The position numbers were made by a program, and so were the translations under genes. The notes under the pieces were generated by a model. It saw only the letters and a program-made list of their open reading frames with translations. It did not search any database and was not told the DNA's origin. Below, one piece after another: positions 398-62,499 of a DNA stretch of 64,000 nt. How positions within the stretch are numbered: the first letter of the stretch is position 1; every line of letters begins with the position of its first letter. The DNA comes from Verpa conica (taxonomy: Eukaryota > Ascomycota > Pezizomycetes > Pezizales > Morchellaceae), in contig JAUFSD010000010.1 of NCBI GenBank assembly GCA_033030425.1, positions 124,001-188,000 on the forward strand. Reading direction: 5' to 3'.

Positions 398-2792
398 GAT
401 GCCTCCACTAACCACAGCTGAGTGGAAGAAGAGATACCAGCAGTACCAAGAAGGGTTGATTGAGAGTAGCGCTGTAGAACACGCGAGTTCAACCCAGGCA
501 AATATCGATAAATTCCGTGGGCGTTGGCAATGGTAAGGCATTTATGTGCATCTTTACAGTGGAATATACTAATGGATGGCTTTAGTTTTTGCAATGACAT
601 CATAGGTCAAGATCCCGACTCCACTCTCAAGAATCTTGGCGAAAACCAAGTCAAGCCCTTTCTTGAATGGCTTGTCGAAGGGTCAACAAAGACGAAACTT
701 TGTAAGACAACAGTTCAGTATTATTGGAAGCACCTCCAGATAATCTACCGCCAAGCCACAGGAAATTCGACTAGGGTGGAGCTAAATAAAGAGATTAATA
801 GGGTTTGTATACCCTAGATAGTATCCAATAGGAGATCCCGCTGAGTTTTGGAATAGTACATTGGGAGCGAGTTACTCGAACGTTATGATTTAGTTATTGG
901 AAGTAAGCACAAACCGGTGTGCTTGGTTAGCGACCTTTATATCCTCTTAGACTACCTTTGGCGCCAAGATATGAAGACTTACCTCCACAAACGCTATCGA
1001 ATACAATTAGCACTTATTATGCAATTGTTTGCGTATACCGCTAGCAGGCCAGGTGCTATAGTTGAATCGAATTGTTGAAGAAGGACTAATGAGGCGCTAC
1101 TATATGAGGTAAGTTAATAGCTCTAGCTATACTTCGGTTATTTTTGTTTATATTATAACTAATCACCTTATATTTAACTATGTTAGAACATGAAGCTAAC
1201 GTTACTACGCAACACCGTAAATGAGGACGATGGTGATATTCTCGTGCTTGAGGTCTCAACAACTTTACTAAAGGGGAAAAGGAACAAGAAAGAACCGTAT
1301 GAGCCCTATATTTGCATCTCAGTCCCCCAGTTACTTATATGACCCAGGGTGATTTTTGTTCTCCACGAGCGAGATGACGGTTTGGCGTTTTGCCCCCTCC
1401 TATTATTCCTAGCACTGGCCTTCTCAGACAATGCTTTTAGTGCGGATATTAAAACACCCCAGGAATTGTTTGACGTGAGGGTTCGAGACGGAAATGGAAA
1501 CCGCAATTCTATCGAGTTTTGTTGGAAAAAGTCGATATTAAAAACACCGGTTTTTCGGGCTGTTGAAAACTGCCCCTCTGGGCAAGGCTACTGTATCTCA
1601 GATACTAGGGCTTTAAGCTATAGCGGCTTATCGTCACAAATGGGTAATCTCTCAGTAAACGCTGGCTTCAGCCAGAAGCTTAATCCATACGACTTTCGAA
1701 GAGGGGCAGCCAATGCTATAGAAGGTAACTAACCTAAGCCGTTAACTGAAGCGTGACAACCGCTAAAACCTGCTCTCTCTAGCCAATGCTACTGATGCAC
1801 AGCGTAATCAAATCATGGGGCATTCTCGATCCAGCGTTTTTAAACATTATATATCGCAAACAACACAGGTCGATACACAGGCGGCCTTTCTTGGTGCACC
1901 GGCGCGTGCAGATCTTATTGCTGCTGTTGGCCGCATGGCTAAAACAAGAGACGAAAGGGCACCTAAAGCCCTAGGTAAAGATGCCCGGGACGAAATAACA
2001 AAAATACCTGAGCTCATGGACCTGGGTAGGAAGCGCAATGAACTGAAAAGGGAGCTAATTCAAAAATATGGATCTATTAAAGCAGCTTCCGGGACCGATC
2101 CGCATCAGAAGTTCGAGCTAGCAGACCGAAAGTTTGCGACTTTACGCAACAAGCTTCGGAGGGAAACGCTCAAGCAAAAGAGAGAGCATTTCTTTGATAC
2201 TATAAATGATCTTGAGATTAAAGCTCAGTTGACTAATCAAGATCTCTCACCAGCATTTCCAGAGGAGAGTCGGATATACCCATTTCCAGAGCGCTATCGA
2301 ATCGCCGCGGCTTTATTCTCTGATAAACCACCCTCTCGGTCAAGTGTTATTGAAGATTTGATTAAACTCTGTCAGATCAAAGCTTCGAATGCTCGTAACA
2401 TAAATTCAGCCGGCACAGATTGTGATATCTGTGGTGACGGACTCCAAGATGGTTATGAGGAAAACCATTTCACAGCGCACCTCGAGACAGTCGGTTTTAA
2501 GATTCCTGACCATTGCCTATTCTGCGTCGGAGATACCACCTTAAGGCCCTCGCTACGACTTTTTCGTTTTGAAAAGAGTTTCAATCTGAAACGCCATGTG
2601 CAAACACACCTTACGCATATCGAACTGCCTATAAACTGCCCCCATCCTTACTGTAAAGATGTGGTGTTGGAAACCGATATGAATTTAAAAAACCATTTTG
2701 GACTTATTCATCAAGTCATTCTTTGGTCAGTACACCTTATTTTGACTAGAGTCTTGATATCTGCTTACATACCCGAGTCTAGAAAGACGTAA
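398..2792 (+). pseudogene. DUF3435 tyrosine recombinase (Starship captain / Crypton-like family), decayed
   Basis: Translated pieces follow the DUF3435 family in order. The N-terminal part contains QVKPFLEWLVEG, then YYWKHLQIIYRQ and NKEINR; next come VSDLYILLDYLW and FAYTASRPGA; then IKLTLLRN-like and VLHERDDGLAFCP; then NPYDFRRGAANAI; and finally QIMGHSRSSVFKHYIS followed by VDTQAAFLG. The C-terminus carries C2H2-type finger pairs around 2420-2720. The family catalyses strand exchange with an Arg / RRGA / Tyr set, and the Arg in ASRPGA, the Arg in YDFRRG and the Tyr in VFKHYIS are all still present. Introns fit at about 535-588, 1110-1187 and 1726-1783. The gene cannot make a full protein: TGA codons stand in frame at 1076-1078 and 1340-1342, and the stretch 800-880 is disrupted. 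The start is the ATG at 398, which opens MPPLTTAEWKK. It could belong to a Starship or to a smaller Crypton-like element. Confidence 0.85.
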
Positions 2793-3282
2793 TTTCCACT
2801 TTTCAGTCCCATGGCTAGTGAACAGGGCTAGGGTATTCCCCCTCTTTGTTTTTCTGTATGCGAGGAATGAAGGTGGTGGTATGGAGACTATGGTTCTGTG
2901 ATATAGATTCGATTATATTGTTGTTTTTTGCATAGGAATAGAACTTGTATCTTAATTAATATATGGTTTCGTATTCGTTATGGTTATCCTAGTCCGCTGG
3001 CTTGACCTAGCATAATAGCCTTAGTTTCTTCCCCCCTCCCTCAATAATCACAATATTCTTAGAGATTATACGTGTAAAAGTAGCAACTCAAGTAACTAGT
3101 AGCCATTCTTTAAGGTGTAAATCACATAATTCTATAAGATAGAACTAGGAAATAGAACTCACCCAGCAGAAAAAGGTCAGTATATTAGTGCCTTATGCAC
3201 CTACCTTCAAAATATAGAAATGGTTTTTGCCCAGACCGCTAATCTTTTATATAAGAATCCTTAAGGTGAAACTCTCGAGGAT

Positions 3283-3494: not shown

Positions 3495-3619
3495 GAAACT
3501 CTCGAGGATAGAACACGGTAAAGATAGAATATCTATTGCTTTTGACAGGATACTCTGTGACAGTGTTACCCGTGTTTTGATCATTATATCGTTGATAGTT
3601 GCGGGGCTGAAAAGGTTGG

Positions 3620-3760
3620 GAGGCCTTGGGGGATGGGAGACCGTAGGGGATGGAAGGCCGTAGGGGATGGAAGGCCGTAGGGGATGGAAGGCCGTAGGGG
3701 ATGGAAGGCCATAGGGGATGGAAGGCCGTAGGGGGTGAGAGCCCGTAGGGGATTGGGGTT
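3620..3760. repeat. 17-bp minisatellite
   Basis: Eight to nine tandem copies of GGATGGAAGGCCGTAGG. The central four copies are nearly identical and the outer ones diverge (GGATGGGAGACCGTAGG at the left, GGGTGAGAGCCCGTAGG at the right). Confidence 0.9.
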
Positions 3761-5621: not shown

Positions 5622-7809
5622 AATCTATCCTACCCAGCAGGACACCCCTTGCCCCTCTGGCTGCCTTGTCAGAGATGTTTTTAAGACTACCCAATAGAGT
5701 AAGAAATATGACCTTGAAACACAGGTTCATGCTAACAGAACTGGAAATTCATCCACTGACGCATGGCTATGACCAGTGACAGGCGTGCTATTTGTGGATC
5801 CGGTAGTTCATGGATGACTTGAGATTAAGCATGGTAGAAAATGCCAATGAGCTTCGGGTCCGCTTCAACAACCAAAAAGCCCAGGTCTACTATAGAACTA
5901 TAGCTAGCAAGGGTTTCTGATTTGCGAATGCTTTAGCTAGTCATTCAAGAATCCCTAAGGCGGAGAACGTCAGAATGCCTCGTAACAGTAAGTTAATGCA
6001 AATAAAAATTTGGGTCCCTACCGGATTCGCGATCAAACGGCAAAAGGTTAATATCAGTTATGAGAATGGAAAGTATTGGCTTGAACTACTCCTCTAAAGG
6101 TGTACCGTGGCCAAATAATCTAATATAAGCACCAGTTCTTAGTTATTCTTGTCTAGAGCTAGGTGTTACCAAAAACCAGAAAGGGATCTTAGCAAGTTAA
6201 AACATGGCTAGAAGGTAGGCGAGATGTTGTAGTGAGACGGAGTAGGTGGGCGAAGAGGAGTGAGAAGGAGGATTGGTTCAAGTACCTAACGCAAAGTTAC
6301 CCGTTAATAATCGATCTTTGACTAATCTCTTGAAGCCTGTTACTATTTTATAGGCTAAGGCTCCTGAAGAACTTTCAGTAGTACCTGTAACGGAGGTACT
6401 CCCAGGGGAGTACTGCCGTACCAAAAAAACCAACAACCTCCCTTTCTGACGAGAAGCTTCAGCAGCGAGGCTTAGAACCGCTCGTCAACACGGAAGGTCA
6501 ACAGTCCCTAGGCAAAACAGGAATAAGGATTTAATGGATAGATAACTAAAGACTTTTAAAAGGCTCTGCTTCCTGGGGGAAGACAAACGTCTTTAGCAAA
6601 GAGTATGAGGGTCTCTGAACAACGGTTGTTCGTTGACTAGCAAGAATGATTGTCCTGGGGGAAGGACGGGTTTAAGCTATGATTTTGATTGCGAGCAGGC
6701 TGCCAAGGAGCGGGGGAACAATTCCTCCGCGCTTGGAAATCAACTGAGTCTAGAGCGCCCCTAAGAACTAGCGGGGTCGATAGACTAGCGACTAAAAAGC
6801 GTTGGTTACTAAAAGCTCTGTAACTATTGCTAAAGTGGTCCGATTTCAAATCCGATTGCACCTATGGATTTGCAGCACTGTCCCCCATATACCCTCTGAG
6901 TTTGGTTCGGTTGGACGAATTTTCCTGACGGTTTTGGGGTTATTTTTGGGGTCCAAAACTTGTCTTTTTGTTAGGGAATCTGCAACTCAGGGGGGCCCCC
7001 TCTGCAAACGGCGGGTGGCACAGTGGGGCGCCTCGCGGGTGTTAGAAAACACAGAGTCCCCTAGGCAGGGTAACCCACTGGTGATTCCTGCCGTTGCTTA
7101 GATTCCTTTCCCACGTTCCTAGTCCAACCTGGGGACGTGGCGGAGAGGTAATCTTGATCCATAAGGACCTTAGGGCGAAGCACAAGGCATAGCCCCGTAT
7201 GGTTCGATTCGTGACGCCGCCAGGTTAATTATTAATTTTGCTGGCGGCCCTAACTACTAAGCATAGCTTTGCTCTCGTCTCACGGCTCTCGGCCTCCCAT
7301 AAGGTTGGCCATCAGCGAAGCCGTTGTTATTCCTCCTAGAGGAACAGGAGCTTAACTCTGTTCATGGAGGCAACTGCTTCAGTCTCATTGCACTAGTATC
7401 TCCCGTAGCTATAAGCTACAGACGCATTACTCTGGTCTCTGTCGCATACCGACGACGGTGAGCTTCGCTCCGTCCTAGGAGCTCGCCAGCTCGCTTAGGG
7501 ATCGGGCTATCATAGTAATGACTTTCCTTAGTATCTATTGACCGGAATGGGATAGCTAGTCCTATCCCTCAAGGGAGATCCTTAGGTGTCTCTATATGGA
7601 GAGGTACTTGAGACTAGTCATGACGATGGTTAGATCGTCACAATGGTATTCGAATGCAAGTTGTTGCGTGAAGCACTAACTAACTGACAGAGATGCGTCC
7701 CTTTTATACCCTTTCTGGAGGGACGCTGGGATCAACGATGAGACAATATGAAACCAAAGGAGCAACCTCCTTCTACATGAAACTATAGACGTCTCGTCCT
7801 GCGAGGCGT
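5622..7809. other. Non-coding flank of the gypsy element
   Basis: No gene seen. From about 6630 to 7800 the composition becomes more GC-rich and even than the AT-rich surroundings, with motifs such as AGCTTCGCTCCGTC and short inverted repeats. This suggests an inserted non-autonomous element or LTR remnant, whose ends I could not define. The five bases ACTTT at 7810-7814 are the left target duplication of the gypsy element. Confidence 0.4.
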
Positions 7810-7814
7810 ACTTT

Positions 7815-8462
7815 TGTGGCGGGGCGGTTGGGATGGTATGGTAAAGCCTAGGCAACGGGACGGTGACAGCGACTAAGACGGCGACAATGAACGGTGTTAT
7901 GGCAAAAGATATTACAAGTGAAAAACTCTGTAATATTTCTTTACTAGACAATATAAACAAGACGTTGCGTGCCTAAAAAAATCCTCGGGGCGAGGCCCCT
8001 CCTTATATGTTTCCCCTATTTCTTCCCTTCTTCTCTGCTTCCAAAATAACCTTAACGCCAAAGAAAACTTTTTCACTCCAACTAAATTTCCCCCACTGTT
8101 TCTGTTGGATATGTCATATCCAACAGAAAGGTATCTTTCCCATACAAACCGCATACAAAGTGTACAAAGAGCTCCCAGGGTCATACGATAACGTTACGTA
8201 AATTCCGAAACTACCACGAGGGCCGTCGGAGGAGAACCTTATTGCCAAAGACACAAACCCCCATCAACCTCGCGTGCGCGGATACGAGCCTTCCTGCGCC
8301 CATTATTCCCTTTCCGTTAAATTGCTCACAATGCGCGCATTCAATCGACTCGATCGCCGAGTGGGGGCGAGGTCGAAGGTGACTCTCTTACTGGGGTGTG
8401 GTCCGGTTTTGGTCTTGTTTCGTGCGACGGTGGCGTTGGTATCCTCGGAGCTGCCCGCGATA
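7815..8462 (-). repeat. 3' LTR of the gypsy element
   Basis: 648 bp, the left LTR on the plus strand. It starts TGTGGCGGGGCGG and ends GCTGCCCGCGATA, where the right copy keeps CA. It contains a 27-base perfect palindrome at 8101-8127. No clean polypurine tract is visible next to its inner edge. Confidence 0.93.
8101..8127. other. Perfect palindrome in the LTR (copy at 13964-13990)
   Basis: Arms of 13 bases (TCTGTTGGATATG and its complement) around a single T, identical in both LTRs although the LTRs have diverged elsewhere. It could fold as a hairpin in the transcript. The arm also resembles the TGTTGGA...TCCAACA ends of some LTRs, so it might mark an older nested end. Confidence 0.8.
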
Positions 8463-8569
8463 TGGAGGCCTCCCGGCGTTCGACTTCCCGTGAGAATCTA
8501 GTGAGGCTTTGGCGAAAGTCAGGCTTGGTTGGATGTCGCTGATAGAAGATGTCGAGGGCAGCGCATTGT

Positions 8570-11395
8570 TCAATGTATTCGGGGCTCCCACGTAGGTAGG
8601 TCATAGCCTGTCCACTTGACGAGGTACTGAGGGCCTTTGATGCCATGAAGCCGGGCGTCGAGAATCTCCTCCACTTCCCACTCCGTTTCTCCTTCAACAA
8701 TAACTGGGGGAGCAGGGGGAGGAACATGGCCGGGAATGGGATCAGTGGCGACGGGGCGAAGCTGGGAAACGTGAAACACGGGATGATTGGCCATGGTAGC
8801 TGGAAGATCAAGTTCGTAGGCATAGGGACTGATAACCTTCTTAACGGTAAACCGACCAAGTTGTTTCCAGTCCAATTTCTTTGAGGGCCTCTGGGTTCGG
8901 ATATTTTTGGCAGACAGCCAAACTTGATCTCCAACTTTATAGTCGGGAGCAGGGATACGATGGGCATTGGCAGTGTTTTCTTGGGCATCTTGAGCGAGCT
9001 TCATTTCTCCGCGAAGGTAGTCGTGTAAGTCTTCCATTTTCTGGGCAAACCTCCGAGCGTCGATACTGGGGGGGGACCTATCATGAGGGACCAAGTCAAG
9101 GGTAAACCGAGGGTGGAATCCGTAATTGGCGAAGAACGGGCTAACTTTGGTGGTTTCCGAAAAGTGATTGTTAGCCGCGAACTCGGCAATGGGAAGCCAG
9201 CTGGACCAGTCGTCTTGTTGATAAGACACAAAGCTTCGGAGGTACTGTTCCATTACAGCGTTGACGCGTTCTGTTTGTCCATCGGTCTGAGGATGGAAGG
9301 CCGTAGATAATTTGGACTCAATCTTCAACTGTTTACACAGGCATTGCCAGAACTGGGACGTGAACTGAGTTCCGCGATCCGAGATTACCGTAAGAGGGAG
9401 GCCGTGAAGTTTCCAGACGTTTTCAAGGTACAAACGTGCGACGTCTTGAGCGTTGGCAGTGGTATGGCAGGGGAGGAGATGGCGCATCTTGGAGAGTCTA
9501 TCGACCACAACGAAAATGGCATCGTACCCATTACTCGACGGTAGGCCAGTGACGAAGTCCATGGAAATGTCCTGCCAAGGTTGATTTGGAATGGGCAGGG
9601 GACGAAGAATTCCAGACGGGGCATTGTACGATGGTTTGCTGCGGCTACAAGTGTGACAATTCTTAACATATCGCTTCACGAAACTTCCCATCTTTGGCCA
9701 GTAGTAGTCTCTACTCAGAAGTTCGAAGGTCTTTGAGCGTCCTGGATGGCCGGCGGAGGGGGAGTCGTGGTACTGTTTCAGCAATTCCAGCTTTAATTCG
9801 TTGTGGTCTGGGACGTAAAGGGTGCCTCGATAGCAAAGTTTTCCATTGACGTTGGTGCACTCAGCCAGGGTTATTTCCTTTGAATGTTGCACACCCTGGC
9901 GAAGAAGTTCTAGAATTTTTTGAGGGGCGGAATCATTAGCATAGGCTTTGGTAAACAACTTTTCCAGTGGGGTCGTTCCTTGAGCGGGTTCATTTGACAA
10001 AGAACCCGTAAACAAACCAAGCTTACTGTCAAAATTTTCCCTTTTCAACACTGTTTGACTCTGATGAGCCAATCTTTCATCCCCCTCTTTAGGTAGATCT
10101 CCAGATCTCCTAGTTAGTGCATCGGGTTTCCCCCCTTGTTTCCCTGGACGATATGAAATTTTAAAATTAAAACGAGATAGAAACTCGGACCACCTGGCCT
10201 GGCGACGATTCAACTGCTTGGTGGACATAAAATATTCCAGATTACGGTGATCGGTGATGACGGAGATTGGCTCTTCGGTACTCTCCAACTCTGGTCTCCA
10301 TTCTTCAAAGGCTCTGATGATTGCTAGTAGCTCTTTGTCGTAAATTTCGTAATTGCATTCGGCGGGCGAATGTTTTTTGGAGAAAAAGGCCACCGGACGG
10401 AGGACGTTGTTTTCATCATACTGGGACAAGATACCCGCGGAAACATAATCGGAAGCATCGGTTTCCACCACTATTGGTCGGTCGGCGTCAAAGTGCATGA
10501 GAATGGGAGCTGAGGTAAAAGCTTCTTTCATTTTCTCGAAGGCTTCTTCGCACTCCGGAGACCATATGAACGGTGTATCCTTTTTCGTAAGAGCAGTAAT
10601 AGGAGAGGCAAGATTAGAAAAACCCAAAATAAAACGCCGGTAAAAATTCGCAAACCCAATAAACCCTTGTACTTCCTTCACATTCCTTGGGGCAGACCAT
10701 TCCCTGATGGCAGACACTTTCTTAGGGTCCATCGCGATGCCGTTAGGGGAGATAATTAGACCCAAGTACTTTGTGGATTGAACGTGAAATTCACATTTCT
10801 CAGGTTTGAGAAAGATCCCATTTTCCTTCAGAGCTTCCAGTATCTTACGAACGTGGACCTTGTGTTCTTCCAGAGTGTTACTGTAGATCAAAATGTCGTC
10901 AAGGTAGGCAGTGCAAAAGACGTCGAGGTACTTGCGTAAGGAATCATTGATAAAGTGCTGAAAGGTTGCGGGGGCATTGGTGAGTCCGAAGGGCATTACG
11001 GTGTATTCAAAGTGGCCATACCGGGTCCTGAAGGCGGTTTTCCATTCCTCGTTTTCTGCCATGCGTACTTGATTGTATCCCATCCTGAGGTCCAACTTGG
11101 TGTACCACTTTGCTTTAGCTAAGCGATCCAAGGTTTCTCGAATGAGAGGAAGGGGATATCGATTTTTAATAGTTATTTCGTTAATTCCTCGGTAGTCAAC
11201 ACAGAGACGGAGACTTCCGTCGTCTTTCTTGGCGAACAATACAGGGGCACCGGCAGGAGAGGAGCTGTCTCTAATGTATCCTTTGGACAAATTGTCCTCT
11301 AGGTATTCTTTGAGTGCGACGAGTTCCTCGCGAGACATTCCATATAGGGGGCCAAAGGGGGGTTCCTTTCCATCCCTCAGGAATCTTATGATCAT
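8570..11395 (-). CDS. pol: Gypsy Pol: reverse transcriptase, RNase H, integrase, chromodomain
   Basis: A 941-residue frame. RT motifs are clear: [12 protein letters not shown] near residue 65, [13 protein letters not shown] near 134, and the catalytic YLDD at about 164-167. RNase H begins near [13 protein letters not shown] (about 308). The integrase has its HHCC zinc motif (H..H...CHTC, about 552-595), followed by the DDE core in [18 protein letters not shown] and GQTERVN. A chromodomain follows at the C-terminus ([27 protein letters not shown]). The frame stops just after TWEP. The residues expected next are in another frame, and one extra C in the run at 8581-8584 (plus-strand G run) would explain the break. 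Upstream it overlaps the protease frame by ATGA; RT-leader residues lie in a third frame there, so another frameshift is likely. Confidence 0.93.
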
Positions 11396-12120
11396 AAATA
11401 CGGCGTGGGCATGTTTTTTGCGATCTGTTCGTCGAACATATCCAAAATATCATGGTACTCAACCGGAACTTTAGCCTTCCAATCCTCTTTGGTAGTCTTA
11501 TGGTCAATAGCTTTGTTAATCTCATAAAGGGAGATTGACAAAATGCGAGAAGACTTCTTTCTAGCCAAAAAGGAGAAGGGGACAGCCCCAATCATTGCAA
11601 TGGAAATTTTCTTGAGAGCGGGAGCCGGGGGGGAGATACCAGTGGAGACGACGGGAATGGTGGAGGAGGTGCAGTGTTTCATGCAGTAATCGGAACCGAA
11701 GGAGACATGATTGGAGGCAAACCTGATGGCCACATCATGGTGCTTCATCCAGGGAATGCCTAAAACAAGAGGATAGTGTCCAAGGGAAGTGACAAAAAAC
11801 GGCGCATGCTCCTGGTGTCCCCCTATAGAGAGACCAAGATGGGAAAGATGGGTAATGTCCCCGGAGGCTACGCTTCGGCCGTCTATGACTTCTAGAGCCC
11901 GGGGAGTTTTTAACGGTAACAGGGGAAAAGAATGCTGGCGCGCGAACGATTCATCAATGAAAGCATATCCGGAGGCACCAGTATCAATCAGAGCGTGGGT
12001 TTTTACTGTCTTTGTATTGGTGGATAAGGTACATGCTACTACCAAATGCTCACCATCCAAAGAATCTTCCTCCACAACAATGTTTGATACCGAAAAGCCA
12101 GAAATAGAAAATGCAGTCAA
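11392..12120 (-). CDS. Gypsy aspartic protease region
   Basis: A 242-residue frame with the retroviral-type aspartic protease signature [14 protein letters not shown] near residue 45, where the Asp of DTGA is catalytic, and the second conserved hydrophobic-Gly segment [12 protein letters not shown] near residue 115. It cleaves the Gag-Pol polyprotein. It lies between gag and RT in a frame different from gag and ends in the ATGA overlap with the RT frame. In chromoviruses protease and RT normally form one frame, so the stop at 11392 is probably a mutation rather than normal architecture. Confidence 0.88.
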
Positions 12121-12170
12121 AGAAAAATCGTTAAAAGGTCCCTGGGCAGGGCCAGTTAAAGGCCCAGGGA

Positions 12171-13643: not shown

Positions 13644-13685
13644 TGGTACAGTGTTGTTGGGTAGGCTTGAAGGGACGCAACGTAG

Positions 13686-14328: not shown

Positions 14329-14411
14329 ACTTTTTACATGACCAATAATAACAGGAATCCTACGAGATATGAAACGATACATGAAACAAGGAGACAGACA
14401 AGGCAGACTAG

Positions 14412-34541: not shown

Positions 34542-34712
34542 GGTGGTGGAAGCGGCGACTTTTGTATAAACTCTCCAGGCGTGAGGAGACTCTACCTGGT
34601 CAGGCGTACGGGGGCGTGTAGTATCATGAGCCTGATGGAATGTGAGGAAGACTTTGTGTTCGCAGTCGGGGTGGATATATTTGTATGAGTTTGTTGAGGC
34701 TGAGGGGTGAGA

Positions 34713-34924: not shown

Positions 34925-34998
34925 CGTTGGAGATCTATCCGGAGAATTGGTATTGGGCCTTGAGGGTGCTACCGAAGAAAGCTTAACCCCCAAAATTC

Positions 34999-35466: not shown

Positions 35467-35480
35467 CCAAAATTCAGCAT

Positions 35481-51113: not shown

Positions 51114-51772
51114 ATGTATCTCCCACCTTATATTCTTGTGCTTGGTGTTTTGATCTCTGTGGGTTCAGCTGAGCTGGAGTCCAAAGTCCGGTACCTACTA
51201 TGCTTTCTATATGAAATTTTGATGTATGCCACTGACCTAAATTTAGTTCCCAGACCTCTCATATCTGGGAGGACTCTATAGTTCAAACTAAGCCAACAAG
51301 CACTTACATGTGTCCGGGGCCAACCGAATTTATCGGTACCGGGTCCAGGTGTGCCTGGGCAAGCACTGGGGGCATCGTGGAAACTGGGACTTTCAGCACT
51401 TTGTGGGGAAATTCCACACATCAAACTGAGCAAATAAACACACAATTGTATCCGAGGCCAACTGGATGGGCTGGTAACGGATCTGACTACATCTGGGCAG
51501 GCAATGGGAGTATCGTGGGAGCAGGAGATTCTTTTAACACTTCTCGGGGAAACTCCACAGGACAAGCCGAACAAACAAGTATATGTTCTGGGTGTATCTG
51601 GACTGGTACGCCTGATTCTTTCGGAAATGGGGGCAACCTTACAACAACCTTTCAACCCATAGCTACCGGCTATAATAGTACACCAGCCCACTCAGCCACC
51701 CCGAATGGAGTTGGGTCATCCGGTCCTCATCTTGCTTTAGTTGTGCTTGTTATGAATCTAGTGTGGCTTTGA
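51114..51772 (+). CDS. Predicted GPI-anchored cell-surface repeat protein, 200 aa, two exons
   Basis: Exons 51114-51190 and 51247-51772 join in frame across a 56-bp intron (GTACCT...ATTTAG). The N-terminus MYLPPYILVLGVLISVGSAE is a good signal peptide with cleavage after Ala at about 19. The C-terminus has a small-residue site followed by a hydrophobic tail (SSGPHLALVVLVMNLVWL), the pattern of a GPI-attachment signal. The mature part is rich in Gly, Ser, Thr and Trp with several N-glycosylation sites (NGS, NTS, NST, NLT). Three degenerate repeats of 30-40 residues centre on C..P....GTGS..AWA..G.IV and its variants. A long minus-strand frame covers the same DNA but lacks such signals. Likely a fungal wall or membrane surface protein. 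Confidence 0.78.
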
Positions 51773-52374
51773 TCCATCTGTGCTAGCTAGTTTGAGGAAT
51801 TAGTTGGAATTTGCGCGTATATGGTCTAGATAGTTTGTGGGATTTGTTGGAATTAGTTTGAATTTGCGCGTATATGGTTCGAATTTCAGTACTATTATAT
51901 AGGCATTCTTTAAAGTTACTAAATAAAAATATATATTTTTTGAAAAAATGGTTTACCTTGATCGAAGAATTTAAGGGAAGTAAAAGGAAATGTAAATTGA
52001 ACTCATTCCATTCAGCTAGCTAAAGATCGAATTTAGCCATGTAATTTCCTAGGATCAACTATAGGTAGCTAGGTCATGTATTTAAATTTTCCGATAGGTA
52101 GCATGTGAGAAATCTGCTATTCCACACGATGGCTACACTATAGTAGGTCTGGAGGCATGTGTACTACGCGCATATATATCTATTCTGGTTTGCTATGACT
52201 GGTAGGATGCATGTATATAGGTACGTACAATTATAGTAGTAACTCCGACGATAATAAACATACAGGCGATAATAAACGTATAGACGATCTAGTTTAAACT
52301 ATTCTTAAAGAAATACAAATTGCAAATAATCCACCAAATATGATCTTCTCTGTGGTTGAGGAAGGGTTAGATAT
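51773..52374. other. Intergenic, no gene seen
   Basis: The repeated TTGGAATT.GCGCGTATATGGT stretch at 51800-51895 is a two-copy direct repeat. The rest is AT-rich without features. Confidence 0.5.
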
Positions 52375-52795
52375 TTATTGATCTGAATCCTTCGGGGGGC
52401 CAGGAACTAAGTCCGATAGTATCTGGTCTGGGTCTAAGGAGGGAGGTACGAGGACGGGGTTTGGTTTTCTTGGGGGAGTTGTCTCAGCGACACGCTGTTT
52501 CTCAAAGTGAGCTGGGAGCCTGTGCTCAGGTGAAGGGTAACTTTTTTGCTGGGATTTATTAGCAACAGACGTAGGTATTGGAGAGGTATTAGCTAACAAT
52601 TTCCTTCATCGTTGGTGGCCACGATTCATTCTCGGTAGATCTGAAGGTATAGTAGCGGCCGTCCTTTTCTATGATTAAGGAAATTTTTGCGTCGCAGAGC
52701 TTGCTGAGCTCATAAGCCTTGTTCATGATGGCGCCTCTCCGTCTTCTGAACTTGTTTCTCGCGTTCCGTTTCTCTACAGACTCTTTTGATGTCAT
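52375..52795 (-). CDS. Short MADS-box protein, 123 aa, two exons
   Basis: Exons 52795-52598 and 52548-52375 join in frame across a 49-bp intron (GTTAGC donor, TTGCTAAT branch, CCCAG acceptor). Residues about 9-62 match a MADS box: KRNARNKFRRRRGAIMNKAY then ELSKLCDAKISLIIEKDGRYYTF. The canonical order of basic DNA-contact residues followed by ELS.LCDA and a beta strand is preserved, though the basic stretch is diverged. MADS factors dimerise and bind CArG boxes in the nucleus. Typical fungal members (RlmA, Mcm1 types) are over 200 residues with a conserved SAM extension, which is absent; after the box there is only a Pro-rich tail. It may be a dominant-negative-like or specialised factor. Confidence 0.75.
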
Positions 52796-53231
52796 GGTTC
52801 CTGTGGTATGAATTGCGTGTCGGTGGGGATGGAATTTCTTGTGAGGTGCCAGTCTTTATAGAGCCTGTAGCTTCTAGCGATCCCGGGGGTCTCCCGGATT
52901 CTTACTTGGGGTGAAGTTTAATCTAGGTCTGAAACTGTCTGGGAAGCCGTGGGAACCGTCACCAAACGATAAAATAATATCGCTTATTGGCTTAGATTCT
53001 ATTCTAGAGGAGGGGCAAGGACCATAAACTAGTTGCATCGACACCTCTTGGAACCGTGACATCAATTCTATCAGGCGCGGCGGCTATATACCGCCTAATA
53101 CGAGGACGATCTACAGTGAGTCGTACCAACAAGCAACGCTAGTTTCAGCCTCCTTGAGATAAGTGGGAGTCTAAGTAGGTCTATATGGTAACACTATGGA
53201 ATTGATAAAAATAATAGCGATATATCCCCTT
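52796..53231. other. Intergenic, no gene seen
   Basis: Upstream flank of the MADS-box gene and 3' flank of the ferric reductase. A TCTTTATAGAG segment at about 52852-52862 could be the MADS gene's TATA region. Confidence 0.4.
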
Positions 53232-55012
53232 TTACGGGCAAAAATCTAGCGCTTCAAATCTAACGTTCTTTCTAGGCATTCTCCCTACGGTTTTGCGCAC
53301 CCTGTCCTTAGTACTAGAGTCTGTGCAGACTTCGGGAAAAAAGGTCAGTATAGTCTCAGTAATTAATATATACTATTTCGGGGGTCTAACCTGCGAAAAC
53401 GATACGCCCATTCTGCTCTTTTATCTTGTCCCTTACGAATGCCTCAATATCCGGTGGCGTGCTCTGATAAAACTTAGTGATGCGATTGCTACTCCCATAT
53501 TTTACTTGATGACCTGGTTGGCTTTTTGGGTTTTTGAACTGTCCGAGAACAAAAAGGGATATTTTGAGAATCTAGATGAGTTTTGTTAGTAACCTAGTGG
53601 TTTATAGACCTTTTTGAATGCCTACTTTATGTTTATCCAGCTCCAAAAGCTCATTCATCCATTGCTTTACCCAATCTTCATGACCTTCAAATTATGCGGT
53701 CAGCCCAATGCTAAAGACAATAAGGTGAGTACAACTCTTACATTCCTTATCAAACTGCCAATGGAGGAAGATATGGTGGGTTATGACTTCGCAGTTATTG
53801 TATCCTTCGAGAAGTCTCCTTATATAGAGAAGCTGCCCTGCAATGCCAATTCCAGTTGCAAGCATAACAACAGTTCCATATGCTCCAAAATCTTTCTCAA
53901 CCCCGTAGGGGCCTTCAATAATAGTAGTAAGTGTGGAGCCCACATGTTTTAGGATATTCCGTGTAAATCCTTTGTGGGGTTGAATTAGGAAAACTGCTGT
54001 CGTATTACCGTTTACATCTTGGTACCACCACGCAAGGACAAATGGGTGAGACTGAAACCAGGCGAAGAGGCTGACTCTAGGCATGCAAAGATACATGTAT
54101 TGACCTGCTTGAAACTTCCAAGGCCTTTGAACTTTCAGGATCACTTTAACCGTATCGTTGACTTAGGCTTCGTTCTCATCACCGCTGTGGATTCGTTGAA
54201 TCACTGCTTTCCCCGCGTACCGGCCTTGGCCGAAGTTTCGATACAGCAATAGGGAAACCCGTAAGACAAAAGCAGCACCTAAAACTGATACTATTACGAT
54301 GAGGTAGATCTTGGAGGTCTTGGATAGAACATGGTACCAGAGCGCGATCACCGTTGCTACTGCAAAAAATAGGTGGAGTTTGAGGAAAATCTCGTAAAAT
54401 AGGTGACGGATAAAAGAAAGTGATAAGAGAAAAAGCAACGAAATCCCTCCAGCTGCCTAAAGATACACATGCATAAATATAAGTCAAATACGTGGATGAT
54501 TTTGATGAACTAGAAATTGATAGACGTACCAGTAACCCAGGGGGTTTGACAAGCCCTAGTTCCGATTTTTTTTCTATAATAGCAATAATGGCGTGTGTGA
54601 GGCCTTGAATAACCGCTACCCTGCCGATCCATCGGTGCATACGACTGTAGTTCTCGTATGATAGACCGCAAATATCTACCACCATAGTTACGCGACCACC
54701 CACACAGAGAGGTATCACGTTGACCAAGGACATCAACCCTGTTCGGTCCCTTAGCTGGGCAATACTTGTTGTCCTGAATGACACACACAGGACGTTTCCA
54801 GCAGTGTATAATAATATAATAAGAGAATGTAACCGAGTTATCGTACCTTTACCTCTCAGAAGTTTGGGGATTTGAGGATAAATTAGGTGCTTCAGGATAA
54901 AATATCTTCCATAAGTATGTGCGACCGAGAGTGTAGCAAGAAGTAGATGATAGGCTAGGGAGAGGGCTACCAGAGCCCCGAGCGAAATAGCGTACCATTG
55001 AGTGATTTCCAT
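53232..55012 (-). pseudogene. Ferric reductase (FRE/NOX-type transmembrane oxidoreductase) with one nonsense codon
   Basis: Five exons (55012-54530, 54456-53742, 53684-53626, 53571-53391, 53329-53232) keep one frame of 511 codons. Exon 1 gives several membrane spans. Heme-ligand His candidates lie in MHRWIGR, GLTHAI, LKLHLFF and LWYHVL. The FAD site is seen in FQSHPFVLAWW, and the NADPH site begins ATGIGIAGQLLYIRR. The C-terminus ends VRFEALDFCP. Ferric reductases pass electrons from NADPH through FAD and two hemes to external iron. The only visible defect is a TAA at 54163-54165 in an otherwise open frame; a single C-to-T change (CAA to TAA, in a CpA context) would cause it. The protein would end before the FAD domain. 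A sequencing error or a very short unspliced segment is the alternative. Confidence 0.85.
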
Positions 55013-55333
55013 GGTTTGACTGACTGGCTCAATAGAAGTGTTACGAAAGGTAGTTCTTATACACTAAGTATATTACCTATAGAGGATCTATTTTTGGTTA
55101 TACTAGGCTCTAAACGGCTGGAACTAGCTACGGAGAGCCGGTGTGGGTTACATGAAGCCGGCGTGAGTTCGAGAGAGCTTAAATATGCTAGTCAAGGATA
55201 CTCCTATACTGGATCGGGATTCGGGTAATTACATGGGCCTAGTCTTAGGAGTACTCTATAGCCTCTTATAAAACTTCACTTAGGTCAGTTCTTATCACCA
55301 ATTCCCTGGCAAGAACAAACCACGAAACCAGCC
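55013..55333. other. Intergenic between divergent genes
   Basis: About 320 bp separate the start of the ferric reductase (minus) from the pseudokinase (plus), so they share a promoter region. No specific site was recognised. Confidence 0.5.
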
Positions 55334-56387
55334 ATGGAAACTAGCGAGAATCGACTTACCCGCTGGCCTGGCCAGTATAATGAGGGCTTCCGCACACGAG
55401 AATCAGTCATCAGTTTATCCGAACCAGGAATCAATGTATCTCGTCCAGGAACCAGCCTATACGGCCCAGGAACCAATGTATCTAATCCAGAAATCAATGT
55501 ATCCCGTCCAGGAACCAACCTATACGACCCAGGAACCAATGTATCCGATCCAGCAACCAATATATCGGAATCAGGAGCCAATCTATCCGAACTAATTTTA
55601 AAGCCCTCACATATGCCAGTAGCTCCCAGAGACATACCTGAGGGGAGCCATGTTGTCCTCAATATGGGAAAGCCTTGGAAATATTACAAAAGCTTCTTGC
55701 ACATTGAGCTCGGAGGGCCAGCAATACTTGCATACCGAAGAAAACCAGAGCGCCAAGTAGTTGCTGTAAAAGGGTTTCAAGGTACGATTGAAGAGGCTAA
55801 GGTGCTGTTAGCGAATCAACACAAAAACATTGTTCACTGCTATGAGGGGTATCACATGCACGACAAAATCTTTCTGATTGAGGAATGCATGGATGTTTCT
55901 TTGTTGGAAGTAATTGCATGTACTTGGGATCTTGAAGAGGACCAGATAGCCACAGTGTGCTTAGAAGTAAGTTTGCTGGCTAACATCTTATTTTTCTCGG
56001 ATTGGGGCTCACATTTAGGAGGTGTTAAACGGGATCAAGTTTCTGAATTCCTTAGGTCTGACCCATGGAGAACTTAATCCCCAAAACGTGTTGCTTTCGA
56101 TCAGTGGTGCAATCAAGATCGGAAATTTTTCACACTGCAAAAAACTAGGGTCTAGCCAGAGTGATCTGGATACGCGCGATATCAAACCCTTGAGTCGTTT
56201 GGCTATGCAGATGATGGATAGGAACGCTTTTGTGGTTGCAGGTCTGAGTGGGACTTCTCCCACGTTACAAAACCCAGAGCGCTGGAGTGCGCAAGCCAAG
56301 AGCTTTATCACTGTAACCTCTTGGCCCTCAATGAATAATGATTTAGCCGATGTAAGTCATCTACCACTGAACAGCCGTGCAGATTAA
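55334..56387 (+). CDS. Pseudokinase with 8-residue N-terminal repeats, 333 aa, two exons
   Basis: Exons 55334-55966 and 56019-56387 join in frame across a 52-bp intron (GTAAGT, GCTAACA branch, ATTTAG). Residues about 28-92 are eight tandem octapeptides of the form PGTNVS-x-x / PGTNLYDP. A kinase-like fold follows: VVAVKGFQG (the Lys of subdomain II is kept), a helix with NQHKNIVHCYEGY, hinge FLIEECMDVSL, then GLTHGELNPQNVLL where HRD has become HGE, and IKIGNFSHC where DFG has become GNF. The missing catalytic Asp residues indicate a pseudokinase. The C-lobe is short. PAK/STE20-like pseudokinases with HG.L..NVLLS are common in ascomycetes and are thought to act as scaffolds. Confidence 0.78.
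55425..55605 (+). repeat. 24-bp minisatellite inside the pseudokinase gene
   Basis: Seven to eight 24-bp units beginning CCAGGAACCAA(T/C)(G/C)TAT in phase with the reading frame, each coding eight residues. Several units are nearly identical, which suggests recent expansion or homogenisation and probable length variation between strains. Confidence 0.88.
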
Positions 56388-57107
56388 TTAAGTAAAAGCC
56401 ATAGCATCACTTTTTAAAGAGGGTCGCCAGTTGTAGTAGTCTAGTACCCCATATTAAGATGGCTATGGCGACAGTACGGAGGGAATGGAGATGTATAGAT
56501 GCTTAAAGCACATGTATTTCATAAGCAAGACAAAAATGAGGCGGCTATCTGTCTCTCGAAATTAATTTCTATAATTACTTGGGCTGTTCGCGATTGGATT
56601 TGATTTAGACGGTGCGCCCTAAGTACGTGTGACATCACAAACTGAAGCATTAATAAATAAATATACTAACCCTAACCCTAAGAGCATCTCGTGTATGCAT
56701 CCATGGGGGATTCTTGTCCTTCCATCCTCTGTGCTTTATAAGGTCGTATTTCTCATGTCTTATTATGTCTATTTATATAACTTGAAGATACGTACGGAAC
56801 TATAAAGCAGTTGAAAAGGGACTAAAAGGACCCAACTTAATTGGGGATTACATGTATGTAGGTATAGCTAAAAGTTTCTATAAATTTAAATATTTCACCC
56901 CATGATAACGACTACTTAAAAACAGGAACCTTCTAAGTAAAGAAAACAGCACGAGAACCTGATCCTTGCAATAATCCCACTTTCCTTTCCAGTACAACCA
57001 TTAATCGGCATCTTGTCCAAATATATCAACACCTATCTCCGGAGAAAGTCTTGTTTGAAGTAATGAGGGTACTGGTCAACTTAAGAGGGTTAGGAGATAC
57101 TACATAC
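56388..57107. other. Intergenic with short telomere-like motif
   Basis: No gene seen. CTAACCCTAACCCTAA (two and a half units of the TTAGGG telomere repeat) lies at about 56668-56683. The rest is AT-rich. Confidence 0.55.
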
Positions 57108-57470
57108 CTACTTCTTCGAATTTTGATACTCAAATTCTTCATCATCAATCGCAATTGCAAAAACTCTTTTCAAAGACACCTTTTTTGCCCCCTGGGGGGT
57201 GCTGAAATCTGATAGGACCTCCGAAACTGCAGAGATAGCAGCCAATGTGGCCTCCCTGAAGCGTTGGTGATCAGCTTCGATTTGGTCATGAAGCATGCGA
57301 ATTCTACGCCAAGATAACGTGTTCCGAAGTTTTTTTATTTCATCCTGGAGTGTTTCTATTTGTTGTTGACGTTCCTTCAGCTCCTGTCGTGCTTGTGATA
57401 GGATGAAATTGGTATCAGCACAGCTAGAACAGTTATCGGGTTTTATAATCATAGTGGCTGTAGAGTGCAT
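57108..57470 (-). CDS. Hypothetical coiled-coil protein, 120 aa
   Basis: Single frame from ATG 57470. A short Cys-containing N-terminus (DNCSSCADTN) precedes a helix with strong heptad character (LSQARQELKERQQQIETLQD and EIKKLRNTLSWRR), then another helix and a basic/acidic tail (GAKKVSLKRV, DDEEFEYQ). It resembles many short ascomycete coiled-coil proteins and may oligomerise. No specific function is apparent. Convergent with the pseudokinase gene. Confidence 0.58.
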   Translation of the reverse strand: MHSTATMIIKPDNCSSCADTNFILSQARQELKERQQQIETLQDEIKKLRNTLSWRRIRMLHDQIEADHQRFREATLAAISAVSEVLSDFSTPQGAKKVSLKRVFAIAIDDEEFEYQNSKK

Positions 57471-59377
57471 GTAGTTGATGTGCTTTATTAGCCATAGCTA
57501 GATACTCATATATATATCAGATAGTATAGAATCCCTGAATGTAGGCAAAGCTCACATCTCTTACGAGTTATAGTCACTTTTAGCCCTTCTAAGGCTCCTA
57601 GGGCCACTTCTTGTTCCTTGGAACCACTTCCTATTTTCGTAAACCTAGTTTTGACTCCCTTATGATTAATTCAACTTCCATAATTAGACTTCTACATTTA
57701 GATTTACCCCTGTTTAACTATGGGTATCAAACGCCTAGAAGATGTTATATCCCTATAATCTAAGGCCACAAAGTTTCATAAAACACCCTACTTTCACGGA
57801 GGGATCAGGGACGCAAGGGTGAGCCTTATCGTGACTCATGCAAGGAGGGAGGTAGGGTAACAGGTGTCGAAGGTGGGGAACAAAGGCATTGTGCGAAGCG
57901 GGGATTTTGTATAAATAGGGAGCGTTGCTCCCTCGCTGTAATAGTTTTCTCTTCTTCTTTCCTTACGCAACGTTTCTTACGCCGCGACCGAGCTTCGCTC
58001 GGTCACGGCTACCACCATCGGTCCCCCCATTCTTACGACTCTAGAGTTATAGCAAACCTTCGGGCGCGCTGAGACTCCATCTTACGGCAATACTGGGCAC
58101 GTAGGACGGGAGTTGTTGAAGCAAACCTTCGGGCGCGCTGTAACTTCTTTGTCGACCCAAACTTCGTTCAGGTGCCCCTCGGGGAGTTGCGTCCACCTGC
58201 CCCCATTACCTCCGGATTTCACACTGCCAGTCTCTGTAAGCCTAGCGCTGGAACCTCTGTCAAAGTCCTCCGGAAACCCTCTCCATTCCATTTGGTTTGG
58301 ATGAGCCCTTACTCGTTGCCTTCGGGCATTCATTATGATGTTGGAGGTATCTCACCCGAGAACCAACCTCCCCACCACCAGCGAGCGGGCAGTCCCCCTC
58401 AACAACACTTTATTTTACCGGACCAGGCAGACTCGATTCTCCAGGTCCTTTACTATCCATAAACACTTTCTCCGACCGGAGAAAGTGCTCTACTTGACAG
58501 TTGGTTGACATCCGAGATCACCAACCCCCCCTCTACCTCAACGGCATACCGAATGACACCGGCCCCATGCCTTACACTACCATACTTCGGCTCCGTCCGA
58601 GCCCCTAACCTTCTTTACACCTTTGCTTTTTTCCCTTTTCACCAGATTATGTGACCGTGTCCGCTTCGGCGGGGGTAGAACATTTTCCTTGGTACCGGAG
58701 CTCCCCTAGGATGATTATAGCCTTGAGCTATAGGACGACTGGACCGGATTACACGCCAGGAATCAGCCTCTCTCGTTACTACGTCGTTGGATCGGAGGAT
58801 TAGTGCTAGGAGAGTTGGGATGGGTTTATACTTGGTTTACTACATGTTCTTTCTTTGGTGTCGCTTAGTTAGTTCTATGTATTACGTTCTTTGTTGAGGT
58901 CCCTCTATGCGTTTAGTTCATAGATACCCGTTCACTCATTTTGTTATCGGTACTCGATACCGATAAGTTAGTTAGTTAGTTAGTTCGTGCCACCTAGTGG
59001 CTTACCTAGTGGCCCTCGGGGCTAGATGGGAAATAAGATACTTTACTTTACTTTACTTTACTTTCTTCAGTTAGAGTTAATACAAACTTCTTTCTTCGCT
59101 GCCTCTCCGCTGTTTTCATCGCTTCGCGATCGTTGAACCCACTTCATACTTCACAAACCTTTGGTATTTTGCTTGTAACGGATAGTTACCTTGCCATCGA
59201 GTTAGTTGTATCCTGTGGTTACGCTGCCCTCACGCTGTCCCCCTTGAAACCTACCCGTCACCGTACTTGTTTTTAGCCCCCTCAAAAAAATTTCAACTTT
59301 TGAATAAAGATAGGAGATATCTGCACGTTTAGAATGCAATTCCAAAATATATTCTTGAACATCGATAATATCTGACA
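57471..59377. other. GC-rich non-coding block (about 57.8-59.3 kb), probable element remnant
   Basis: From about 57800 to 59280 the DNA is clearly less AT-rich than its surroundings and has no coding frame. It includes a TATAAATAGGGAGCG promoter-like sequence (57911), the hairpin GACCGAGC-TTCG-CTCGGTC (about 57986), a 23-base direct repeat AGCAAACCTTCGGGCGCGCT at 58051 and 58119, (GTTA)n at about 58969 and (CTTTA)n at about 59040. This looks like a non-autonomous LTR element or its solo LTR, but I could not find matching ends. It lies directly before the first codon I can assign to the patatin-like gene. Confidence 0.4.
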
Positions 59378-62300
59378 ATGTGCAGGCACACAGAATGGCT
59401 CAGCCTTGCGACCGGTTCGCATGGAACTACACTTCTTGAATCTAGCAGACTCCAAACCCTCTTACATTCGTTCCCAAACCCTTCGACACAAACACCATCT
59501 CTAATCACTTTTGTCGGCGGCAGGTTTAAGACACAGGCCATAAAAAAGCTAATGTCATCATCGGGAGAGCCTAGTCTCTTAGAGTATAATACTGGTGTTC
59601 ATATACATGAATACTTTCCTACAATTAAGCATAAAAGGCCAATCCTGCTGGCAGATTATACACCTTATGTACAAAACCCGGGCCAAAACGTTTATTCTCA
59701 TACCGACTGTCACGAAATAACTGGGAGACCTTTGCTGTGGACTAACCAGTCGGTACAAGAAATTAAACCGGAAACTGTAGCAGAAATACTACTAGCCCGC
59801 TTACTAGTACCATTTAGTGATATAGTGTGCATTTTTTCTTCAGACTTTGGGGGCCTTGTAGGCGTTGCGGAGATGTTGATTACCGTGGTGAGCAGAGGGC
59901 GTGGATCAACCCTACCACAAGCCATTTGCCCAACAGTATTTGTTATTGTGGATAGCTGTGCCTCTCTTCCTCATACAGACTTGGTGGCAACCCAATTCCT
60001 ATTGGACATTCTACAGGCGGAGGCTAGTGGGAAAATATCCAGTTATTTTTCTGGCTTGACCGTACTCTGCGCCCCTCCTCAGTCACTGTTGGACTATTTA
60101 CTCCCTGAGGTAGATGATATGCAGAAAAAACGCAAAATGACCAAAAGTCTCTTCTCACTTCAACATTTTACGGCGCTCTTTATGCTTGGATGCGATCATT
60201 TTACTAAAACCATCACACAGCCATTTGATTTTGTTAAGTCTTCAAGGGTTCGAAACCCAGTACCACAGGGGTTTTCCCGGCATATCGCCGAGTTCCTGGA
60301 GCATCTGACTACTGAGGCGGAGCTTATTAGGTTGGGCCTTCCCATGATTGCTTCAAGTCTGCTTCTGGATAGCAGCCCCCCAGATATGCATAGTAAGGGC
60401 CAATATCACTCACTCCCTCCTTACTCGCGTAATAAATACATTCAAAATTAGAAATATTTCTAACATGGCTTCTAGTTTTCGATCCAGTTGATACATTCAA
60501 GCTATTTTATAAAGACCACTGCATAACTGCTATCCAAAATCATTCACTGTATGAACACCAGGCTCCTATTACAGAACTGACATCCCTGCTTGTGTCACAA
60601 TTCAAGCGCCTTGTTCTTTGCGTTGAAAAAGGTGATAAAACCTCCGCACAATTACACCATAAAACTCTCGAAAATCATAGGCAGGTTCTAAAAGGGTTAA
60701 GAAGCGAGACAACATGTTTCTCCTGCCTCGGCCGTGGACCTGAAAAGGGCCTTCCTTGTGGTCATGCTGTGTGTGAGGTTTGTATTCAGGTATTTGGCCA
60801 TTCAGTACTAGCGGAACCGTATACATTCATAATCGATAGCTGTTCCTTTGTGGTGCTGGATTTTCGGGTTTCAAGGCCCAGATAAAGCCTCCAACTACAG
60901 GTGTTCGGGTATTAAGTGTGGATGGAGGTGGGATACGCGGGGTGGTCCCTTTGTCTATTCTATGTGAGCTGGAGGAGACAATAAGTAATCTAGTTGGGTT
61001 TTCTTATCCAATCCAGGAAAATTTCGATCTGGCGTATGGTACAAGCTCAGGTAAGCTCGGGTCTATGCTGTTGGTGAATTTTCTAACAGTCACAGGTGGC
61101 CTCATTGTTGCTGGGTTGTTCCTCAACGGATGGTCAGTAGAAGAGTGTTTAGAGAAATTTGTCAAACTCGCCAAGAGAGCCTTCAGCCCTAGGCAATTCG
61201 CACATATTCCTTTTATACGACCAATACAAGACATCTTGATCTCGTATTTTGCAGATAGCCAATATAGCGCAACCGGAATAGAGGACGCTCTAAAAGAAGC
61301 ATTCGGAAGCGGTGCTATGCTCGATTGGTCTGGGAAGCGTGATTTTGGGACCAAGGTTGCCGTGACAGCCACCACAATCGAAGACTCTTCTCCGTGTATA
61401 TTCACCAACTATAATGGTATTGGGACTAGGTCACCGGAGTGTGGTATTTAGGAGCTTCTTAGCCCGTTCAATTTCTATAGATACTGACCTTTTTACAGGT
61501 TATAGAATAGTGAAGGATAGCTCAAAGAAAGTCTCTATCTGGGAAGCGTAAGGCTTTATAAAATTCCGTTCATTTTCATGCGCTGATATGGAGATTAGGG
61601 CCCGGTGCACTTCAGCTGCTCCATGGTTCTTTAAACCAAAGTGCCTACCAGGCCTAGGGACTTTCCAAGACGGAGGTCTTCGACATAATAATCCAGTCAA
61701 CATCGCTCTTTGGGAATCAAAGGTAATATGGTCACCAAATGAGAGTAAGCTAGATATTGTCCTTTCAATGGGTACTGGCTCGTCAGTTTTACCCGACCCC
61801 ATTCGTGAGTCTCTCGGTCCTAGGGGAATTTGGAGAGATGGCTTTATCCCCCGCCTTGTACGTTCATTTTTAGGCTCCATGGATGGTGAGGATGCATGGA
61901 AACATCTCTGCAACCAATTGCCAAAGGAGTCAAAAGACAGGTATTTCAGATTTAATATCAAATATGACGGCAGTGAGCCTGCTATAGATGATATTGATAA
62001 GATGCAGGGGCTGGAGCAAAGGGGAAGAGCCCAGACTAGTCTGGAAAACAAAGTTGACGCGGCAGAGTCGCTCATTGCAAAACAGTTCTATTTTGAATTA
62101 AATGCATTACCAATATATTACAAAGGGCGGTACCAATGTACAGGTCGTATAGTCTGCCGCTTTTCTGGAGCCCAGCGATCAGTATTTCTCAACCGCCTAT
62201 CTCAGAACTCGGCCCATTTCCTTTTAGGTGAAAGACCATACAGCACAGTATTTCAAGAAACCATTGCATTCAGCGTAAAGGACCTGAATGAGGAAGTGTC

Positions 62301-62499
62301 TATTTTCCTAGGGAGCCCATCTACAAAACCGCGAAGCATCAGCGGGCTCCCAACTTCGATGACGTCGCTGATTCATGCTCAAGGTCTGGATTCCTTCTTT
62401 GGGGTTTCGAATCATTCAAAAAGAAAGTACCTAAAAGAAAGCCCTCCCACCGAGTATGATTTTGTGCATGGAGCCAAGCGGCGATGTGTTAAAGTTTAA
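59378..62499 (+). pseudogene. Patatin-like phospholipase with N-terminal P-loop-type region and zinc-binding motif, frameshifted
   Basis: Exons 59378-60392, 60476-61050, 61096-61443, 61499-61547 and 61599-62499. The N-terminal 330 residues match the GTPase/P-loop-like part of large fungal patatin proteins, but the nucleotide loop is altered (FVGGRFKTQ in place of G-x-x-G-x-G-K-S/T). A zinc motif follows (CFSCLGRGPEKGLPCGHAVC then C). The patatin core has the oxyanion motif DGGGIRG, the nucleophile serine in GTSSGG (created across an intron) and the catalytic Asp in FQDGGLRHNNP. It would hydrolyse lipid acyl esters. The frame is lost by one base near 60841-60850, between YTFIIDSC and LCGAGFSGF. 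The N-terminus also seems incomplete, since the open frame begins right after the GC-rich block. Starship elements often carry genes of this class (PLP). Confidence 0.85.

Follow-up and report, generated by a model that had tools for sequence, protein, structure and literature searches.

Starships, giant transposons of Pezizomycotina, are described in passages of two sources (PMC12153272, PMC12134995) as elements of 20-700 kb that carry a DUF3435 recombinase gene, the captain, first at the 5' edge and are bounded by short direct repeats; DUF3723, patatin-like and ferric reductase genes are among the gene types sought as common in them, according to a section of the second source (PMC12134995). 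In the portion of PMC12153272 dealing with targets, Osiris navis, a member of the Enterprise family from Aspergillus fumigatus, is stated to insert into 5S rRNA genes and to split them, and direct repeats longer than 6 bp are stated to go generally with 5S targets. Parts of PMC12134995 propose captain swapping from discordant trees and treat the recombinase groups of Cryptons and Starships as very distantly related.

The window analyzed here, i.e., the whole stretch of 64,000 nucleotides, corresponds to C10:124001-188000 (contig 10) of a genome searched as 45.8 Mb in 25 contigs, and all comparisons were made within this single genome. We consider it almost certain that window 36860-64000 makes up about three quarters of a 36.4-kb Starship, hereafter copy A, the captain of which lies beyond the right edge of the window and reads inward. 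The element is like the Starship superfamily, as characterized in passages of PMC12153272 and PMC12134995, in its 5' captain, short direct repeats, DUF3723, patatin-like and ferric reductase cargo and size, and unlike it in the distant captain (50% at best), the Pezizales host and the bracketing of the captain by two arrays. With Cryptons it shares the character of a fungal tyrosine-recombinase DNA transposon, differing from them in the PF11917 match and in the unit of 36-40 kb. Cryptons are small and are not known to carry such cargo. Within the window, copy A is represented by the following features:

36860-64000, minus strand: Starship copy A (C10:160860-188000, running on to C10:197262), edges set by comparison with copy B
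36860-36863, minus strand: direct repeat (GCAG) marking the end of copy A on its 3' side, paired with the one at C10:197259-197262 beyond the window
47344-48408, plus strand: cargo gene for an ankyrin-repeat protein with an F-box (PF12796, 50.9 bits; PF00646, 21.0 bits)
52592-52855, minus strand: cargo, MADS-box (SRF-TF) exon (PF00319, 42.3 bits)
53235-55063, minus strand: cargo, ferric reductase with transmembrane, FAD-binding and C-terminal pieces (PF01794, PF08022)
55262-56384, plus strand: cargo, protein-kinase-like gene of two exons (PF00069, 23.7 and 25.4 bits, both below the cut-off of 31.7)
57792-59249, strand not assigned: dispersed 1.46-kb transposon with short inverted ends, in many genomic copies
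59369-62499, plus strand: cargo, patatin-like gene (PF01734 in two exons, 60.9-61.7 kb)
63253-64000, minus strand: probable C-terminal part of a DUF3723 gene, in a 275-aa ORF that continues past the window end

The extent of the element was established by comparison with a second copy, copy B, using repeat-poor query pieces shorter than 10 kb. Copy A as a whole occupies C10:160860-197262 (36,403 bp including both repeats, of which 9,262 bp lie past the right end of the window), and copy B occupies C12:1330473-1370480 (40,008 bp including both repeats). The match between the contigs begins at C12:1330473 and C10:197262, covers window 59252-64000 and 50900-57770, and stops at window 36860 and C12:1370480. 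Of 3,000 C12 bases spanning the 3' edge, just the first 1,480 match C10 there, and the query window 28000-37700 recovered its own locus in full and, at the C12 site, positions 36860-37700 alone (best 40 of 337 candidates scored). The flanks are unrelated at all four ends. The three long stretches compared initially showed 98.8-99.6% identity between the copies, and 9.5 kb of alignment gave 99.5%, the letter-by-letter comparison comprising 9,512 of about 36,000 common bases (four stretches); in its stretch of about 7.5 kb at C12:1334235-1341780, copy B is about 6.2 kb longer than copy A is at C10:190930-192236.

GCAG stands at all four edges (two per copy) as the direct repeat common to copies A and B, the letters common to both edges of copy B being CTGCAG. 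In both copies, next to four differing flanks, the element opens at the 5' edge with GCAGTATTGTATGTCGAG and closes at the 3' edge with CTCGAGGCAGTGCATCTGCAG. The sequence-only reading had suggested a possible Starship, which the bounded copy A, the second copy and the GCAG edges bear out, and had found no terminal repeats, which the edge search corrected by locating the direct repeats at the true edges. Inside the edges, TCGAGCTTT and TCGAGATTT, 13 and 14 bp in, are alike in eight of nine bases, as judged by eye; such putative terminal inverted repeats, a feature frequent in Starships though not universal, would be short and imperfect, and are counted against the assignment of copy A. A 19-bp tandem array (window 37115-37200) lies within copy A at about 0.25 kb from its 3' edge; rich in A and C on the strand that does not encode the captain, it is possibly a counterpart of the 5' array described below. 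Short dispersed repeats, each about 155-165 bp long and present in dozens of genomic copies, occur at window 36401-36556, 36657-36821 and 45898-46053, the first two adjoining the Starship 3' edge.

A genome search for DUF3435 gave eight matches at four captain loci:

Window 929-2324, plus strand: at the left end of the window (PF11917, 144 and 130.7 bits)
C10:193738-194546, minus strand: in copy A, 5.7-6.5 kb past the window
C12:1331858-1332735, plus strand: in copy B
C10:395926-397085, minus strand: a third captain, outside both copies

In copies A and B the captain is followed by DUF3723 and then by patatin, in the same order. In copy A the captain gene is found 5.3-8.9 kb beyond the window on its right side, oriented leftward. 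In copy B the captain is the first gene, its ATG being 396 bp from the 5' edge, and reads inward; its model comprises 693 codons with five introns, from ATG 1330869 to stop 1333218 on C12, several splice choices being open, of which the 693-codon one was used. Residues Y347, R350, H372 and Y382 are invariant in four of four aligned proteins, as is the R of SRPGAL in the three covering it. This captain is distant from all proteins found, the nearest match being from Maublancomyces gigas (Discinaceae, Pezizomycetes) with 50% identity. A profile search for further captains returned the same three proteins again, and a search of solved structures gave one chance-level match (E 0.1). The third captain (C10:395926-397085) is distant both from that of copies A and B and from the one at the left end of the window; some 22 kb downstream of it, and on its strand, there is a DUF3723 fragment (C10:373180-373644), and the pair perhaps marks another Starship.

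When joined at one GCAG, the flanks of copy B restore its empty site, a 125-nt sequence (TACTGCAG continued by TGGGTGACC) that matches intact 5S genes of the genome. At least 39 other places match it at 87-100% (40 of 45 candidates scored), and among the matches listed eight are perfect (100%), of which two extend through the junction to cover 125 of 125 bases; the site of copy B itself (C12:1330390-1330477) matches bases 1-88 only, i.e., a broken 5S gene. The Rfam model 5S_rRNA gave 33.4 bits (E 0.0006) on the 5' half, the gathering score of 38 not being reached, and the predicted fold of the joined sequence was no better than that of shuffles (z -0.59) and was not used as evidence. That copy B is inserted in, and splits, a 5S rRNA gene is well supported by these sequence matches. 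The evidence from an empty site pertains to copy B. Beside copy A and the captain at the left end of the window no 5S half genes were detected, C10:1-250000 yielding merely chance matches of 11-12 bases. One element is thus found both in a 5S gene and at a GCAG site outside any recognizable 5S gene; its insertion is not confined to a single fixed target, a point counted against the assignment. Compared with Osiris navis and the Enterprise family, as presented in a part of PMC12153272, 5S insertion is shared by copy B alone, while the direct repeat is 4-6 bp here and copy A lies outside a 5S gene.

Most likely, the captain would bind the two ends of the element and then insert it by recombination at the 4-bp GCAG core, which would leave GCAG at both edges; the target was the GCAG of a 5S rRNA gene for copy B and a GCAG site elsewhere for copy A. 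What we infer here is the order of events, the catalytic activity, a crossover located at GCAG and a circular intermediate, if there is one. Having two near-identical blocks in one genome could also be explained by segmental duplication, or by duplicate assembly, of chromosomal DNA that happens to include a recombinase gene. We regard this as extremely improbable, as the C12 block lies inside a 5S gene whose halves rejoin exactly, both blocks start and end at GCAG with the captain at the same end, and each copy has its private insertions and substitutions.

Cargo of copy A agrees with its assignment to Starships, three of four Starship-typical cargo types being present (DUF3723, patatin-like and ferric reductase). 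The ferric reductase gene at 53-55 kb and the patatin-like gene at 59.4-62.5 kb, both proposed as Starship cargo from the sequence alone, do lie inside copy A; PF01734 was recovered in two pieces of the latter at 60.9-61.7 kb. Of the two ferric reductases initially recognized, the one at 53.7-55.06 kb is confirmed by PF01794 and PF08022, and the sequence at 14.4-15.0 kb turned out to be a decayed C-terminal fragment only, by likeness to which the C-terminal pieces of the former were themselves recognized. The HNH, hemopexin and MADS genes are real (HNH_2 at 20993-21946, hemopexin at 32321-33031, SRF-TF at 52592-52855); as to their role as cargo, the MADS gene belongs to copy A, and the HNH and hemopexin genes lie outside its edge at window 36860. 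DUF3723, noted as missing, was found by the flank search in the same element outside the window, as a PF12520 domain at C10:188162-189807, and we infer that the 275-aa ORF at the window end joins this adjacent match in one DUF3723 gene. NLR domains, also noted as missing, were indeed absent from the 40 window ORFs scanned. Copy A holds in addition several ORFs without a Pfam match. Further DUF3723 genes were noted at C10:27223-28447, C11:5886-6935 and C13:1520869-1521940, 5-29 kb from contig ends, and enrichment of DUF3723 near chromosome ends is possible. A 605-aa patatin-domain protein of the genome is 71% identical to that of Morchella snyderi and 49-50% identical to those of three Tuber species, which, together with the Maublancomyces match of the captain, places the host probably in the Pezizales near Morchella.

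Copy A looks like a decaying copy. Its captain is split by a solo-LTR-like repeat of 1.26 kb with TG..CA ends and a 5-bp duplication, GAAAG, the family of which is also found at window 6386-7649 and C10:237481-238744; judging from this insert, the captain of copy A probably can no longer mobilize that copy. The 1.46-kb transposon at window 57792-59249 is present in copy A alone, copy B running from C12:1349458 to 1349477 at that point, and the first DUF3723 match of copy A holds a stop that is missing in copy B. The sequence-only suggestion of a decayed element is apt for the damaged copy A and not for copy B, the captain of which is open. In 9,512 aligned bases the copies differ by 50 substitutions, i.e., 41 transitions and 9 transversions; in 36 of the 41 transitions a C or G of copy B faces a T or A of copy A, and five of the nine transversions fall in a stretch with a 4-base gap. 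Repeat-induced point mutation (RIP) was considered as the cause and is not invoked because the dinucleotide indices lack a strong signal in seven C10 stretches; the C-to-T-type bias of copy A is equally explained by ordinary or methylation-linked decay.

As the element spans C10:197262 to window 36860, window 1-36859 lies outside copy A. It comprises:

72-298, plus strand: 22-bp tandem array upstream of the left captain, about 0.1 kb before its ATG
399-2792, plus strand: left captain (DUF3435), of another lineage and not in copy A (gene model, PF11917)
3617-3753, plus strand: G-rich array of 17-bp tandem units, 0.83 kb past the end of the left captain gene
6386-7649, plus strand: solo-LTR-like repeat of the same family as the insert that interrupts the copy A captain (copies 96-97% identical)
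7815-14329, minus strand: Ty3-type LTR retrotransposon, LTRs 97.7% identical
14425-15042, plus strand: decayed C-terminal fragment of a ferric reductase gene, recognized by likeness to the 53.7-55 kb gene
20993-21946: HNH_2 (Pfam match)
32321-33031: hemopexin-repeat gene (PF00045, 54 bits), outside the Starship

Hemopexin-repeat genes are rare in fungi. The Ty3 element is complete, with gag, protease, reverse transcriptase, RNase H, integrase and chromodomain matches, and has a second, inverted copy at C10:59197-65729 (96.3% identical). The ferric reductase fragment consists of two stretches that share 43-53% identity with the C-terminal region of the gene at 53.7-55 kb; an opposite-strand ORF gave one match to this gene at 38%, and the ORF at 14065-14628 had no Pfam match.

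The left captain had been read as a DUF3435 relic at 0.4-2.8 kb. The PF11917 match at 929-2324 upholds its identity, and "relic" is too strong a word: in the best model, from ATG 399 to stop 2792 with five introns, there is one premature stop, and all but one of the eight stops that the genome search counted in the first part of the match fall in introns. We conclude that the gene is nearly intact but carries at least one disabling change. Its identity to the captain of copy B (two stretches) is 27-30%, and it is nearer to a captain from Arthrobotrys (Orbiliomycetes; 32-36%); given this low identity and the differing nearest relatives, it represents a lineage other than that of copy A. The sequence-only reading had proposed it as the captain of one old Starship with the whole window as cargo, and it does point inward between captain-type arrays, with the ferric reductase fragment 14 kb downstream in the same orientation (about 12 kb past the captain gene). 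We find this distinctly unlikely, because the C12-shared unit stops at window 36860, with GCAG and differing flanks there, and has a captain of its own at the opposite end. A larger left-captain Starship with copy A nested inside is another conceivable arrangement, for which no edge was found. The left captain probably heads a second Starship of another lineage, beside copy A.

Both captains are bracketed by similar arrays, a firm observation in this genome. To the upstream array of the left captain corresponds a 22-bp array at C10:197071-197126, about 0.2 kb before the ATG of the captain of copy A, the units at both captains sharing the core ACMRACRAGT on the captain strand; to the downstream array corresponds a 17-bp array at C10:192309-192515. 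The 17-bp units, CGTAGGGGATGGGAGGC and CGTAGGGGATGGAAGGC, are alike in 16 of 17 bases, and the arrays start 0.74-0.83 kb past the stop codon. Strand, order and approximate distance are kept in both lineages, and DNA comparison of the captain regions revealed no likeness outside the tandem arrays. Genome-wide, a 28-base pattern of the downstream array gave, with up to three mismatches, 15 matches (seven at the left captain, four in copy A and four in copy B), as against none for the same pattern backwards. A spaced pattern of the upstream array gave ten matches with up to one mismatch and none in the control; seven were exact (five, one and one at the three arrays), and of those with one mismatch two were at the left captain and one on C6, so that neither pattern revealed a further array. 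Both patterns were designed after the arrays had been seen, and these counts therefore test absence elsewhere and are not a discovery; for the upstream array it is the spaced pattern on which the case depends. When the upstream regions were aligned plainly, the score was 34, a value reached at 23 of 1,917 random C10 places, the best of 200 shuffles scoring 39. On the strand of the captain, the downstream array shows a strong excess of G (G4Hunter 1.32 and 1.26); a quadruplex role was given no weight, C10 having other G-rich places. Viral contigs held neither the 17-bp pattern nor a relative of the patatin piece, which says little, the collection not being fungal.

At the protein distance of these captains unconstrained DNA should have lost its likeness, which would imply, for two lineages in one genome, that selection keeps the arrays or that elements have exchanged them. 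The arrays are candidates for a cis-acting "captain cassette". Captains only 27-30% alike sit between like arrays with no other DNA likeness, which would fit a conserved cis module that binds or controls the captain across lineages, and between the arrays of which captains might be swapped together with the target choice, the cargo being kept; on sequence grounds we hold this to be possible, though doubtful. To the alternative that the arrays are ordinary satellites without function, derived from common descent or local exchange, we give an even chance. It accords with the restriction to just two lineages in one genome, with the upstream alignment being no better than background and with the third captain locus, where neither array was found within about 0.7 kb before or 1.15 kb after the gene, nor by pattern at any distance, so that the arrays occur in two of the three captain lineages of the genome. 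It accords poorly with downstream units alike in 16 of 17 bases beside such divergent captains and otherwise dissimilar DNA, and with the retention of strand, order and approximate distance by both arrays.

Our literature search found no description of captain-bracketing arrays, which does not show their absence from print. "Tandem repeat", "minisatellite" and "subterminal" were absent from PMC12289983, PMC12506042 and PMC12153272, and the first two terms from PMC11623301; in PMC13066641, "Starship", "captain" and "tandem repeat" co-occur, the passages concerned being on rDNA assembly, and these terms also occur together in PMC13376923. Among the papers searched there was no Starship report for the morel lineage, Pezizales being unnamed in them and Pezizomycetes appearing in a reference list alone.

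The Starship itself is a known kind of element, and the new part is the arrays bracketing the captain. With the present locus, the morel lineage gains a Starship of known bounds, in two copies and with an open captain; that one element is found inside a 5S gene as well as away from any is informative about target choice by captains. If they recur in other species, the arrays would be a first sequence handle on where a captain may act within its own element, would help to mark hidden Starships and would offer captain swapping a route open to test.
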